Below are positions 12,713-18,788 of a stretch of 45,110 nucleotides of DNA, in pieces. Under the pieces are notes generated by a model that did no database searches, was not told the DNA's origin, and was given only the letters and a program-made list of their open reading frames with translations. Each line of letters begins with the position of its first letter. The stretch's first letter is position 1. A program made the translations under genes and the position numbers. The stretch spans positions 1-45,110 of the forward strand of contig JAHFGX010000006.1 of the NCBI GenBank assembly GCA_023247215.1, in the 5' to 3' direction. This stretch comes from Candidatus Omnitrophota bacterium (GTDB lineage: Bacteria; Omnitrophota; Gorgyraeia; Aquiviventales; Aquiviventaceae).

Positions 12713-13314
12713 ACCAGCTCGCGGCGGCCTTCCACGGCGCGAGCCAGGGTGGCATGATCCGCGTATTCGAGGTGGCCGCCGACCGGCAGGCCTGACGCCA
12801 GGCGGGTCAGCTTCACCGGCTGGGCCCGTAGCAGCTTGGCGAGGTAGGATGCGGTGGTTTCCCCGTCTTTATCCACGTCGGTGGCGATCAGGATTTCCCG
12901 GATGCCGCCTTCAGAGGCCGCCACCCGCCGGACCAGCTCGTCAATCTTCAGCAGCTCCGGCCCGATCCCGTCCAGCGGCGCGATCGCGCCCAGCAGCACG
13001 TGATACAGCCCCCGGTACGTCCCGGTCTTCTCGATGGCCAGCACGTCTTTCGGCTCCTCCACCACGCAAATCGTCGAGGGGTCCCGCGCCGCGTCTTGGC
13101 AGACCCCGCAGCGGGGCTCCTCGCTTACGTTGAAGCAGATCTCGCAAAACCGGAGCCGCTCCTTCACGTCGAGGATCGCCTGCGCCAATTGGCCGGTCTG
13201 TTCCTCCGAGACGCGCAGCAGGTAAAACGCGATCCGCTCCGCCGAGCGCGGCCCGACGCCTGGCAATTTCCCCAGCGCTTCCAATAAGCGGAGCAATGGG
13301 CGAGCGTAGGTCAT
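12709..13314 (-). CDS. recR: Recombination mediator RecR
   Basis: LEALGKLPGVGPRSAERIAFYLL, CxxC zinc finger, TOPRIM region. Confidence 0.95.
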   Translation of the reverse strand: MTYARPLLRLLEALGKLPGVGPRSAERIAFYLLRVSEEQTGQLAQAILDVKERLRFCEICFNVSEEPRCGVCQDAARDPSTICVVEEPKDVLAIEKTGTYRGLYHVLLGAIAPLDGIGPELLKIDELVRRVAASEGGIREILIATDVDKDGETTASYLAKLLRAQPVKLTRLASGLPVGGHLEYADHATLARAVEGRRELV

Positions 13315-15020
13315 CCCAGCACTGACGGGGGCTGGGGCAAGATCCGGGCGTCAAACAGCTTCACGATATCCCGCACCACCGGCGGAAGCGCCGCCTCCGG
13401 AGCGCTGCCGGCAGGCGGCTCCGGCAGCGGCGAGTAGCGCACCGACAACGCCCGGCCGAGCTGCTCGGACAGCGTCCGCTCGAGCAGGCGCATCGTCTCC
13501 GGCAAGTTCAGGATCTCTTGATGGAGCGGAAAGGGCGGGATGCCCACTTCCACCTGCTGCTGCGCCACGCTGAGCGGCTTCGTCTCTGACAAATAGGCGG
13601 CCAAGGACATCTTCTGCTCTCCGATCCGTTGAATCACGTTCGGCCACCGCGCCGCGAGCGCGTCCAACGTCACCTCTCCCGTCGGGGAGGCCGGCTGGGC
13701 AACCGCGTCCTGGGACACGGGAGGGGCTTCGGCGCGTGCCGACGACGGCGCAGCGGTGGCCGGCGGCGCTGGAGCCTCAGCGCGCGCCGGGGCGGCCGTG
13801 GTGGTGCCAGGCGCGGCCCGCTCCAACCGCTGCAGCATCTGCTCCAGCGAGGCCCACGATTCCCGCATCGCCGCTTGGATCAGCGCGCACTCGATGATCG
13901 CCTGCGCGAAGGGGCTGCGGCGGGCCAGCTCGTACGCCCCGGCCAGGACCTGCGACATCACGATCAATTCTTCCACCGTGGCGTTGGCCGACTGGGCGTC
14001 GAGCCGCGCGCGCGCGTCGTCGGGCAGGTCAATCAATCGCGCCAACAGCTCCGCCCGCGCCGGGGAGTGCGCCGTCGCGCGCGCGATCAGCAGGTGCCGC
14101 AGGTGCCACAACAACCCGGTGAGGATCTGCACCGGCTCTTTGCCCTGCTCCACCTGCTGGGCCAATAGGCTCAGGGCCGCCGGCACGTCGCGGCCCAACA
14201 GGGCGTCCGCCCAGGCCGACAGCACGTCGTGCTCCACATCGCCGAGCAGCTGCGTCACATCGCGCTCGGTGATCGCGCCCTCGCAGAAGCTGGCGAGCTG
14301 CTCCAGCATCACCTCGGCGTCCCGCAGGCTGCCGTCGGAGGCGCGGGCCACGGCGTAGAGCGCGCGCTCGTCCGCGCGCACGCCCTCCGCCTCGATGACG
14401 CGCTGCAGCACCCCGACCACCGTCCGGTTGTCCACGCGGCGGAAGTCAAAGCGCTGGCAGCGGGAAAGGATCGTCGGCGGCACCTTCTGGGGCACGGTGG
14501 TGGCGAAGATGAACTTCACGTGCGCCGGCGGCTCTTCCAGCGTCTTCAGCAGCGCGTTGAAGGCATCCGGAGTGATCTGGTGCACCTCATCGATGATGTA
14601 GATCTTGAACGCGCCCTGAACCGCCGCGAACCTGACCTGGTCGCGCAGCTGCCGGATGTCGTCAATGCCCCGGTTGGAGGCGCCGTCAATTTCGATCACA
14701 TCCAAGTGGTTGCCGCGCGTGATCGCCTCGCAGCTCGGGCAGGTTTGGCAGGGGGTGCTGGTCGGCCCCGTGGCGCAGTTGAGGCACTTGGCGAGGATGC
14801 GCGCGGCGGAGGTCTTGCCCACCCCGCGCTGCCCGGCGAACACATACGCCTGGCCGATCCGGCCGCTGTCAATGGCGCGGGCCAAGGTCATCGTGACGTG
14901 CTCCTGCCCGACGAGCTCCTGAAACGCCTGCGGCCGGTACTTCCTCGCCAGCGCCGCGTGGGGTTGCGGGCGCGCAGTGGCGTCAGGCGTGCGAGCAGGA
15001 GATGCGGATCGTTTGGCCAT
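13311..15020 (-). CDS. dnaX: DNA polymerase III subunit gamma/tau
   Basis: ALARKYRPQAFQELVGQEHVTMTLARAI...GQAYVFAGQRGVGKTSAARILAKCLNC; start trimmed because the ORF-track N-terminus translates tRNA-Ser. Confidence 0.95.
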   Translation of the reverse strand: MAKRSASPARTPDATARPQPHAALARKYRPQAFQELVGQEHVTMTLARAIDSGRIGQAYVFAGQRGVGKTSAARILAKCLNCATGPTSTPCQTCPSCEAITRGNHLDVIEIDGASNRGIDDIRQLRDQVRFAAVQGAFKIYIIDEVHQITPDAFNALLKTLEEPPAHVKFIFATTVPQKVPPTILSRCQRFDFRRVDNRTVVGVLQRVIEAEGVRADERALYAVARASDGSLRDAEVMLEQLASFCEGAITERDVTQLLGDVEHDVLSAWADALLGRDVPAALSLLAQQVEQGKEPVQILTGLLWHLRHLLIARATAHSPARAELLARLIDLPDDARARLDAQSANATVEELIVMSQVLAGAYELARRSPFAQAIIECALIQAAMRESWASLEQMLQRLERAAPGTTTAAPARAEAPAPPATAAPSSARAEAPPVSQDAVAQPASPTGEVTLDALAARWPNVIQRIGEQKMSLAAYLSETKPLSVAQQQVEVGIPPFPLHQEILNLPETMRLLERTLSEQLGRALSVRYSPLPEPPAGSAPEAALPPVVRDIVKLFDARILPQPPSVLG

Positions 15021-15042: not shown

Positions 15043-15132
15043 CGGAGAGGCCGGGATTTGAACCCGGGAGGGAGCTTGTGGCCCCCTAGCGCATTAGCAG
15101 TGCGCTGCAATCGACCGCTCTGCCACCTCTCC
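15043..15132 (-). tRNA. tRNA-Ser(GCT)
   Basis: GGAGAGG/CCTCTCC acceptor stem, long variable arm, anticodon loop CTGCTAA. Confidence 0.95.
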
Positions 15133-15141
15133 CACAACCGA

Positions 15142-15606
15142 TTACGACGATAGGCGCGCGCTGGTCGGAGCTTTGCGCAGGATGGCGGCGCATTCGAGGG
15201 CCAGCACGCCCTTGACCACGATCAGTTTCTTGTTCAGGCGCTCGTGCGCGGACAGATCAATCACCGATCCGGCCGCGCCTTCCTTGAGGTCATCGCAGCC
15301 GATCACCAGCCGGGACACCCCGCTCAGCAGCACCGCTCCGAGGCACATGCAGCAAGGCTCCTGGGTGACATACACCGTGCAGCCGGTGAGCTGCTCCGAC
15401 TGGAGCGTATTGGCCGCCTGCGTGATGGCGATGACGACCGCATGGGCGGTGGGATCCTGGAGCGTGCGGGTCTGGTGATGGGCGCGGGCGACCACGCGGG
15501 TCTTGTGAACGACCAGCGCCCCCACCGGTTTCTCGCGGACGCTCAAGGCGCGCTCAGCTTCTTTAAGCGCCTCCCGCATCCGCTGTTCGTCAACTTTTGA
15601 GGCCAT
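15142..15606 (-). CDS. TadA-family nucleoside deaminase homolog with catalytic Glu replaced (HAV)
   Basis: EKPVGALVVHKTRVVARAHHQTRTLQDPTAHAVVIAITQAANTLQSEQLTGCTVYVTQEPCCMCLGAVLLSG...GAAGSVIDL...GVLALECAAILR. Confidence 0.9.
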   Translation of the reverse strand: MASKVDEQRMREALKEAERALSVREKPVGALVVHKTRVVARAHHQTRTLQDPTAHAVVIAITQAANTLQSEQLTGCTVYVTQEPCCMCLGAVLLSGVSRLVIGCDDLKEGAAGSVIDLSAHERLNKKLIVVKGVLALECAAILRKAPTSARLSS

Positions 15607-15631
15607 CGCTCTGTCCGCCCATCAGAAACCG

Positions 15632-15705
15632 TGCGCCCAGGTGGGCTCGAACCACCAACCTTCGGCTCCGCAGGCCGACGCTCTATCCAATTGAGCTATG
15701 GGCGC
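15632..15705 (-). tRNA. tRNA-Arg(GCG)
   Basis: GCGCCCA/TGGGCGC acceptor stem, TCGGC-CTGCGGA-GCCGA anticodon arm (anticodon GCG at 15671-15669). Confidence 0.93.
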
Positions 15706-15735
15706 GAACTCGTCAACAGCGTGTCAAATAAGTGG

Positions 15736-15825
15736 CGGAGAGGCTGGGATTCGAACCCAGGAGCCGCCTTGTGGGCAGCTACACGATTTCCAGTCGTGTT
15801 CTTTCGGCCACTCAGACACCTCTCC
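15736..15825 (-). tRNA. tRNA-Ser(GGA)
   Basis: GGAGAGG/CCTCTCC acceptor stem, anticodon loop CTGGAAA, long variable arm. Confidence 0.95.
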
Positions 15826-15883
15826 GAACGGCTTTGAACCCTTTAGTTTAGACCGAAATCACCGTCCTGAGAAGCGCAAAACC

Positions 15884-15970
15884 CGGAGAGGGAGAGATTC
15901 GAACTCTCGAGGGCCTTACGACCCTACCGCTTTTCGAGAGCGGCGCCTTCAACCACTCAGCCACCTCTCC
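15884..15970 (-). tRNA. tRNA-Ser(CGA)
   Basis: GGAGAGG/CCTCTCC acceptor stem, anticodon loop CTCGAAA, long variable arm. Confidence 0.95.
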
Positions 15971-16003
15971 AATATAACCCCCGCAAAAACATACACAAAA
16001 ACA

Positions 16004-16093
16004 CGGAGGAGGTAGGATTCGAACCTACGGTCCACCTTGCGGTGGACAGCGGTTTTCAAGACCGCCGCCTTCAACCACTCGAGCCACTCCTCC
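16004..16093 (-). tRNA. tRNA-Ser(TGA)
   Basis: GGAGGAG/CTCCTCC acceptor stem, anticodon loop CTTGAAA, long variable arm. Confidence 0.95.
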
Positions 16094-16840
16094 CTACAGG
16101 AACAGCGTCCGAAAGACCGTTACATAGGCGTTGCGGGTCAATCCCACCGCGTCCGCGAAGACGCTCGAGACCGAGACGCCCGGCACCGACGCCGGCAGCG
16201 TCACGACGACCAACGTCAAGCTGCCTAACCCGATCAGCGCGACCGACAACAAGTAGGACGCGAAGGGCACGCGCTCCTTGTTTCCCTTGAGCTCCTGCAG
16301 CTCGCGCGCCGCCATGATCCAGTGGAACATCAGCGCCGCGCCCAGCCAGACGGCCGAGACGGCATCCACCGCGTCGGCCGGCCACCACCCCCGCGCCGCC
16401 CACGCCGCCAGCGCGCCCAGGAGCGTATAGAGCGGCACCAGGTACGGGCTGAGCACCACCAGGGTGGAGCCTGAGGCCGCCGTCCCGGCGCCGGCGACCG
16501 GCTCGGCTTTCGCTTTGCCTTTGGCGCGCTTGCCGGAATCCGCTTGAGCGCCTCCGGTGGCAATCTGCCCGCCGAAGAGCCACGCGGACAACCCAGAGAG
16601 CATCCGGTGCTGCACGCGGAACAGTGCCACCGGCTGGTAGAGAAACAGGTAGACGCCGACCGCACCGACCGCGCCCATAGCGGCCCAGCTTCCGGCCGAG
16701 CGCGAGCCGATCACCACCACGTCCAACTGGCGCAGCGTGCCCGCGATCAGGCCGATCAGGGGCGGGACCAGCGCCAGCCCCACTAGGGCTTTGACGAAGA
16801 GCCCGAACCCCTCACGCAGCTTCGAGGTGGCTTTGCCCAT
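16094..16840 (-). CDS. Membrane protein of unknown function (Yip1-like topology)
   Basis: Multiple hydrophobic segments; starts inside the 3' end of serS; start at 16840 (MGKATSKLREG) or 16882. Confidence 0.65.
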   Translation of the reverse strand: MGKATSKLREGFGLFVKALVGLALVPPLIGLIAGTLRQLDVVVIGSRSAGSWAAMGAVGAVGVYLFLYQPVALFRVQHRMLSGLSAWLFGGQIATGGAQADSGKRAKGKAKAEPVAGAGTAASGSTLVVLSPYLVPLYTLLGALAAWAARGWWPADAVDAVSAVWLGAALMFHWIMAARELQELKGNKERVPFASYLLSVALIGLGSLTLVVVTLPASVPGVSVSSVFADAVGLTRNAYVTVFRTLFL

Positions 16841-18080
16841 GCAGATAGGGACGCAACGCTTCAGGAATCGCGATCCGGCCATCCGCCTGCTGATGCGTCT
16901 CCATCAGGCAGACCACCGTCCGGGCCAGCGCCAGGCCGGAGCCGTTGAGCGTATGCACGGGGGCGACCTTCTTGGTCGCGGCGGCGCGATACCGGATGTT
17001 CGCCCGCCGCGCCTGGAACGCCTCGAAGTTGCTGCAGCTCGACACTTCCAGGAACTGCCCCAGGCCCGGCGCCCACGCTTCCAGATCGTAGCATTTGGCG
17101 GCCGAGAAACCCAGGTCGCCGGCCGCCAGGCACACGACGCGGTAATGCAGCCCCAGCCGCTTCAGGATCGTCTCGGCGTGCTGCACCAGCCGCTCATGCT
17201 CCTCGTAGGAGCGCTCCGGGGTGGTGAGCGTCACCAGCTCCACCTTGTCGAACTGATGGACGCGGATCAGCCCCTTGGTGTCCTTGCCATAGGAGCCGGC
17301 CTCCCGCCGGAAGCAGGGCGTGTACGCCGTGTACTGCAGCGGCAATTGCGCTTCGTCGAGGATCTCATCGCGGTGCAGGTTCGTCACCGGCACTTCCGCC
17401 GTCGGAATCAGGAAGAGGTCGTCGTCCTTGAGCCGGTACATGTCCTCTTCGAATTTCGGCAGCTGCCCGGTGCCGAACATCGAATCGCGGTTGACCACAA
17501 ACGGCGGGGAGATTTCGGTGTAGCCGTGCTCGCGGGTATGGACGTCGAGCATCCAGTTGATGAGCGCCCGCTCCAACCGGGCGCCGGCGCCGCGATAGAG
17601 CGGAAAGTTGGCGCCGGTGATCTTGGCAGCGCGCGGAAAATCGAAGCATCCCAGCCGCTCCCCCAGCTCGACGTGCGTCTTGGGCTGAAACGAGAACGCC
17701 GGGGCGGCCCCGACGGTGCGGATCATCTGATTATGGCTGGCGTTCCCGGCCGGCACGGAGGCGTGCGGGATGTTCGGCACCATGGCCAGCGCCGCCGTCA
17801 GCTGCCGCTCCAGCTCGGCGAGCTGCCGCTCCCGCTGGGTAATTCCGTCGGAGAGCGGCTTCAACTGCGCGGGGGGCGCGGTAGCCCCGGCCGCTTTGTG
17901 GCGGCCGAACGCCTCAGACTCCTGCTTGAGCTTCGCGCGGTCCTGCTCGATCTGGCCGAGCAGCGCCCGTCGCTGTGCTTCCAATTTCACCAGCGCGGGC
18001 ACGTCCGTGGTGTTGCCCCGGGCCGCCATCCCCTTGGCCAGTCCGTCGGCATTGTCGCGGAGCAGCTTCATCTCGTGCAT
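16812..18080 (-). CDS. serS: Seryl-tRNA synthetase
   Basis: MHEMKLLRDNADGLAKGMAARG...TEISPPFVVNRDSMFGTGQLPKFEEDMY...TPCFRREAGSYGKDTKGLIRVHQFDKVELV...LNGSGLALARTVVCLMETHQ. Confidence 0.97.
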   Translation of the reverse strand: MHEMKLLRDNADGLAKGMAARGNTTDVPALVKLEAQRRALLGQIEQDRAKLKQESEAFGRHKAAGATAPPAQLKPLSDGITQRERQLAELERQLTAALAMVPNIPHASVPAGNASHNQMIRTVGAAPAFSFQPKTHVELGERLGCFDFPRAAKITGANFPLYRGAGARLERALINWMLDVHTREHGYTEISPPFVVNRDSMFGTGQLPKFEEDMYRLKDDDLFLIPTAEVPVTNLHRDEILDEAQLPLQYTAYTPCFRREAGSYGKDTKGLIRVHQFDKVELVTLTTPERSYEEHERLVQHAETILKRLGLHYRVVCLAAGDLGFSAAKCYDLEAWAPGLGQFLEVSSCSNFEAFQARRANIRYRAAATKKVAPVHTLNGSGLALARTVVCLMETHQQADGRIAIPEALRPYLHGQSHLEAA

Positions 18081-18083
18081 CGC

Positions 18084-18788
18084 TTATCCCTTCACCACGT
18101 CCAGCGGAGGCGCCTCCCGCGATTCCAGCAGATCGCAAAACCAAAACCCCTCGCGCTCCACCACCTCGCCGCGCGCCACGCCCACCGGCCGGCGGAAGAT
18201 GGGGCCGTCGTAGACGAAGGTGTGGAACTCGCCGCGCTCGCCGCACGGATCCACCGTGGCCGGCAGGTCCGCCAGCATCGGCCGGTCAAACTCCCGGCCG
18301 CAGAACATCGGGTCGAGCTGCTTGGGGTCCACGCACACCAGGATCGCGCGGAACCCCGCGTCAATAAACTCCCCCGCCAGCTGCTGCGTATCGCGCTGCC
18401 ATAAGGGAAAAATCCCCGACATGCCGATCTGCGCCAGTTGCCGCTCGCGGTAGGAACGGATGTCCTCGAGAAACAGATCGCCGAAGATGACGCGCGACAC
18501 CCCGCGCGCCTGATAGCGCCTCAGGAGACGCTCCATGGCTGCCTCGTAGCTGTCGTTGGAAGCACGGATCGGGATCCGCACCTGCTCCAGCGGCAAGCCG
18601 ATGGCGGCGGCCTGCTGCTCCAGGAGCGCACGGCGCACCCCATGCATGCTGATCCGCTCGTAGCCTTCGGTGACGGTCGTGAGCAACGCTTCCACGCGCA
18701 GGGACGGATCGCGCAGCGCGGCCTGCAAGGCCAAGGAACTGTCCTTGCCGCCGCTCCAGCACATCAGGACCGGCTCCGGATCAGACAT
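18084..18788 (-). CDS. Dph6-related ATP pyrophosphatase (diphthine-ammonia ligase family)
   Basis: MCWSGGKDSSLALQAA...ISMHGVRRALLEQQAAAIGLPL...GDLFLEDIRSYRERQL...GERGEFHTFVYDGPIF. Confidence 0.88.
   Translation of the reverse strand: MSDPEPVLMCWSGGKDSSLALQAALRDPSLRVEALLTTVTEGYERISMHGVRRALLEQQAAAIGLPLEQVRIPIRASNDSYEAAMERLLRRYQARGVSRVIFGDLFLEDIRSYRERQLAQIGMSGIFPLWQRDTQQLAGEFIDAGFRAILVCVDPKQLDPMFCGREFDRPMLADLPATVDPCGERGEFHTFVYDGPIFRRPVGVARGEVVEREGFWFCDLLESREAPPLDVVKG

Follow-up and report, generated by a model that had tools for sequence, protein, structure and literature searches.

A tadA orthologue that probably no longer edits tRNA is conserved beside a GCG-anticodon tRNA-Arg in a family of Omnitrophota

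Why would a bacterium keep a gene for TadA, the enzyme that edits A34 of tRNA-Arg, when neither the catalytic glutamate of the protein nor the A34 of the neighboring tRNA is there any longer? This question is raised by a locus in the window analyzed here (the whole stretch of 45,110 nucleotides from an Omnitrophota contig), in which a TadA-like frame with an ATG start and no internal stops lies next to a tRNA-Arg with the anticodon GCG (Table 1). The pair had been pointed out in the initial annotation of the window; the tRNA stands as described, but the two genes are separated by 24 bases rather than the 27 bp given there, and the reading of the protein as a TadA with HAV for HAE is borne out by the frame, the family matches, and the structure matches. 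The product matches PRK10860 over nearly its full length (E=3.5e-39 and 134 bits, a score below the curated NCBIfam equivalog cut-off of 150), and solved TadA structures match it as well (2b3j at 2.3e-34). The motif reads H55-A56-V57 instead of the HAE of TadA, while all of the zinc ligands (H55, C85, and C88) are present. The protein consists of the deaminase domain alone, without the N-terminal tRNA-binding domain of the ADAT3 type. Residue numbers of the Escherichia coli enzyme are those of a sequence that we take to be E. coli TadA and that matches the PDB alignment over residues 9-146.

Table 1. Features of the tadA locus in the window (positions in plus-strand numbering)
Feature	Position	Strand	Evidence
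dnaX, conserved neighbor, basis of the species tree	13311..15020	(-)	TIGR02397, 417 bits; tree
tRNA-Ser(GCT), between tadA and dnaX, synteny conserved	15043..15132	(-)	ARAGORN
tadA orthologue, TadA-like protein predicted to be catalytically dead (154 aa, HAV)	15142..15606	(-)	ORF; TadA family matches; AlphaFold2 TadA fold
PCxxC zinc cysteines C85 and C88, retained	15343..15354	(-)	Alignments
V57 codon GTC, counterpart of E. coli TadA catalytic Glu59	15436..15438	(-)	Sequence; alignment
H44 codon, counterpart of E. coli Asn46/S. aureus Asn42 (A34 base contact)	15475..15477	(-)	Alignment
tRNA-Arg, anticodon GCG, G34 at 15671	15631..15705	(-)	ARAGORN; Rfam tRNA, 70.9 bits
Three tRNA-Ser genes (GGA, CGA, UGA), upstream, same cluster	15733..16093	(-)	ARAGORN; recurs in family loci

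The assembly that contains the window has 1.46 Mb and is 92% complete and, like every genome compared here, it is a metagenome bin. None of its 44 tRNAs carries A34, and its arginine tRNAs are GCG, UCG, CCG, UCU, and CCU. No second TadA with HAE was found in this genome, the only other PF00383 protein being RibD. The arginine codons of 12 clear genes in the window are 47% CGC and 45% CGG; given this share of CGC, the GCG tRNA must bear much of the arginine decoding.

The family to which the window belongs (f1) comprises 27 Omnitrophota genomes, and a tadA-like gene was found in 17 of them. All 17 read HAA, HAV, or HAT, and the tRNA linked to the gene has G34 in every case; the 123 distinct TadAs from outside the family all read HAE (one of them judged by eye). 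With one further protein from a sister family (genome G127 of f44), there are 18 distinct non-HAE proteins. At loci where tadA is accompanied by an arginine tRNA with ACG or GCG, the pairing has no exception: ACG goes with all 59 HAE genes and GCG with all 16 non-HAE genes, and gene and tRNA are on the same strand in all cases but one. At the remaining two non-HAE loci the tRNA lies at a contig edge and is G34 by pattern. No A34 tRNA-Arg was detected in the 12 family genomes sampled, and the other TadA matches in family genomes are weak and fall within frames of 377-534 residues, as is the case for RibD. A strict G34 pattern run on 197 genomes of the class located tRNA-Arg(GCG) only in the 10 sampled gene-bearing members of the family, although this pattern was too stringent and missed f16 and f44, so a relaxed version was used for these sister families. 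The initial annotation had named as support the absence of tRNA-Arg(ACG), the absence of a second TadA with HAE, and the co-inheritance of the altered motif with GCG, and all three were found. It had also argued that one sequencing error does not explain HAV, and both error and chance are indeed excluded because none of the 17 gene-bearing family genomes has E at the site, which is always A, V, or T, and the linked tRNA is G34 in all of them.

Some candidate patterns were rejected. Loss of the gene in the other 10 family genomes is one of them, since dnaX has no good match in 8 and lies at a contig edge in 2, so assembly gaps account for the missing genes. Another is tRNA-Arg(UCG) as a marker of the clade, as its pattern matches all 12 sampled family genomes but also 89 others. 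Elsewhere in the comparison, genomes G004 (7% contaminated) and G014 have two HAE TadA genes each, every one near its own tRNA-Arg(ACG). In family f32, neither G060 nor G083 has a TadA match, and that of G033 is weak; G083 nonetheless has an A34 tRNA-Arg, for which unmodified A34 or missing contigs are the options.

The changes in the protein go beyond the glutamate. In the alignment, the Glu59 site is E in all active TadAs and A, V, or T in the 18 non-HAE proteins, the Asn46 site is N in 98% of active TadAs and in none of the 18, and R98, H128, and the C-terminal FF (E. coli numbering) are gone in all or nearly all of them. N46 (N42 in Staphylococcus aureus) touches the A34 base and the glutamate serves as proton shuttle (PMC8216470). 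His55 is found in 18/18 sequences and the zinc ligands in 17/18, the exception being a family protein (L037:1501-1965, from G176:C32) with HAT and an intact frame in which PCxxC reads PSAMS, both zinc cysteines having been replaced by serine. Asn127, in the loop that the partner subunit brings to the anticodon stem (PMC9643335, PMC8216470), is retained, residue 128 is Arg or Lys in the family, and Lys110 is mostly retained. The isoelectric points extend to lower values than those of active TadAs. The AlphaFold2 model of the window protein has the TadA fold (pLDDT 93, TM 0.91 to 2b3j), and its last long helix has 9 residues (136-144), compared to 19 (135-153) in an active relative. Binding of the stem-loop depends on the long C-terminal helix (PMC8216470), and the family has lost it.

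All 17 family genes, from many genera, are intact full-length frames. The codon-model omega (IQ-TREE) was 0.078 and 0.028, versus 0.074 and 0.044 for active TadAs, values that are rough because synonymous sites are near saturation, and the closest-pair dN/dS is about 0.2. Judged by these ratios, the gene is under strong purifying selection, with a dN/dS as low as that of active TadA. In addition, D117, E122, and R144 are invariant in the family and atypical of active TadA.

With the relaxed pattern, true GCG tRNAs appeared in both sister families (7/9 genomes of f16 and 2/2 of f44), and no A34 tRNA-Arg was found in either; relaxed matches in G035 and G079 and a second one in G153 proved not to be tRNAs. 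The f16 genomes gave no TadA match above the RibD level. In this family tRNA-Ser(GCT) and dnaX come after the GCG tRNA, without tadA at the expected site, and the site also lacks tadA in G140 (f44). G127 (f44) has a TadA-like gene with HAA, the same Asn-to-His change, and a diverged C-terminus. In the DnaX tree, f1, f16, and f44 form one clade (support 95/92; 100/99 for f1), and the TadA tree places all 18 non-HAE proteins in a single group (support 86). Because GCG is common to the three families and tadA is absent in f16, the simplest reading is a single loss of A34 with later deletion or retention of the gene: A34 probably became G34 once in the common ancestor of f1, f16, and f44, and tadA would then have been deleted in some branches and retained in f1. 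The interpretation first put forward is refined accordingly, the non-HAE/GCG state being clade-wide and one sister family being without tadA.

Two tRNA bodies with GCG are found in f1. The first is near an outgroup ACG tRNA (64/73 bases). The second, that of the window, is identical in 68/73 bases to its own genome's tRNA-Arg(CCG) (L022:1501-1575), the differences being mainly in the anticodon arm, and in 66/73 to one outgroup ACG tRNA. Given the resemblance to the CCG tRNA, some members may have exchanged the tRNA body after the anticodon had changed.

We consider it highly likely that the window gene is the tadA orthologue of an Omnitrophota clade that no longer edits tRNA and that it has been kept as a pseudoenzyme. 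The edit would have been written into the tRNA gene itself, A34 becoming G34, which would read CGC and CGU directly while the U34 and C34 tRNAs would read CGA and CGG, so inosine would not be needed. Once superfluous, editing would have given way to deletion of tadA in some lineages and to its retention as a pseudoenzyme in f1. G34 decoding without inosine and survival of the deaminase as a pseudoenzyme had already been proposed in the initial annotation, and the absence of ACG, the absence of an HAE TadA, and the complete co-inheritance support both. From the pattern of conservation, the pseudo-TadA of the family probably has a new, non-enzymatic job. Somewhat less firmly, we favor the view that a tRNA-editing enzyme, its edit hard-wired in the tRNA gene, took on a conserved function other than catalysis in one bacterial family, as a pseudo-TadA with independently evolved inactivating changes of the ADAT3 kind and no active partner.

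Other explanations have to be weighed against these. That all sources are metagenome bins invites the suspicion of a sequencing, assembly, or binning artefact, but the pattern recurs in 17 family genomes, each assembled on its own, and in one genome of a sister family, the glutamate has been replaced by any of three residues, and the tRNA has changed to match, which leaves this a negligible chance. The protein could still be an active deaminase with another proton shuttle or another substrate, as the nearly universal zinc ligands and the invariant His55 might suggest; however, the glutamate is required throughout the deaminase superfamily, where Val marks the inactive ADAT3 (PMC8216470), A, V, and T are unable to shuttle a proton, the base-binding Asn has been lost too, and L037 has no zinc cysteines, so that remaining activity is very improbable. 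Even less credible is a role like that of ADAT3, as partner to an active HAE TadA whose gene lies at another place in the genome. The Glu-to-Val change and the shortened last helix are as in ADAT3, but the window's genome has no PF00383 protein besides this one and RibD, the second matches in the family resemble RibD in strength and frame length, and the A34 substrate is gone; the heterodimer partner considered in the initial annotation thus finds no candidate.

Slow decay, in which tadA drifts to deletion after the loss of its substrate and the intact frames are functionless leftovers, would agree with the absence of the gene in f16 and G140. The loss of both zinc cysteines in L037 and the diverged C-terminus of G127 could likewise be early decay, and they count to that extent against a conserved pseudoenzyme. 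Decay is nonetheless improbable because of the low dN/dS, equal to that of active TadA, and the gain of new invariant residues specific to the family; besides, 17/17 frames are intact across many genera, and where a family genome gave no hit, the locus is missing or is cut off by a contig edge. A more serious, although still rather doubtful, alternative is a non-catalytic scaffold or regulator that works off RNA and is kept for protein-protein contacts. It would agree with the lower isoelectric points and with the disappearance of both the A34 pocket and the C-terminal helix by which the anticodon stem-loop is bound, while the retained Asn127 of the RNA loop with a basic residue next to it, the mostly retained Lys110, and the persistent linkage to tRNA genes speak against it.

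As a retained pseudoenzyme, the protein would be folded, would contain zinc in most cases, and would act as a scaffold without catalysis, which would make it a bacterial counterpart of ADAT3 that has no ADAT2 partner. For its present role we tentatively put forward RNA binding, perhaps to the tRNA anticodon stem, through the loop of the partner subunit, a protein-protein role being the next choice. The retained tRNA binding proposed initially for the pseudoenzyme has to be modified, since plain retention of normal binding is an unsafe guess once the C-terminal helix required for binding the anticodon stem-loop is gone.

The family protein resembles bacterial TadA (1z3a of E. coli, 2b3j of S. 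aureus) in sequence, fold, synteny with tRNA-Arg and tRNA-Ser, and tree position, but it has neither the catalytic Glu nor the Asn that binds A34, its last helix is short, and its genomes offer no A34 substrate. In eukaryotes, the wobble deaminase contains an inactive paralogue, ADAT3/Tad3, which works together with ADAT2. The window protein shares with ADAT3 the replacement of Glu (by Val in both), the preserved zinc site, and the shortened last helix, but has no ADAT2-like partner and no N-terminal domain, and the family protein derives from the sole TadA copy and not from a duplicate. In Mollicutes, ACG has been replaced by GCG, tadA is reported lost, and CGN is decoded without inosine (PMC3711424). 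The decoding is of the same type here, with GCG replacing ACG and UCG present for the A- and G-ending codons; in contrast to Mollicutes, tadA is kept as a conserved pseudoenzyme in the window's family, though absent in f16. GCG in place of ACG has also been reported in Thermotogae and Spirochaetes (PMC8007984), a likeness that concerns the tRNA. The switch from ACG to GCG is therefore already known, but we found no conserved bacterial pseudo-TadA in the literature searched (most subscription papers lie outside it), within which it is new.

One clade spans the series from active TadA with A34, through pseudo-TadA with G34, to G34 without tadA, and because it holds the whole series, it becomes testable how a tRNA modification of general importance can be given up. 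The same applies to the question whether an editing enzyme has a second role outliving its chemistry. The case also parallels, in nature, the way in which ADAT3 arose. Databases likely label this gene a tRNA or nucleoside deaminase, which would lead to a false prediction of inosine in these bacteria.

Around tadA, four tRNA-Ser genes (GCT, GGA, CGA, and UGA), the gene of seryl-tRNA synthetase, and tRNA-Arg are clustered (15043-16093 and 16812-18080). Adjoining serS in this bacterium, the frame 18084-18788(-) resembles Dph6, the diphthine-ammonia ligase of archaea, with a score of 89 bits that falls short of the cut-off. The tRNA cluster around tadA is found again at the family loci.
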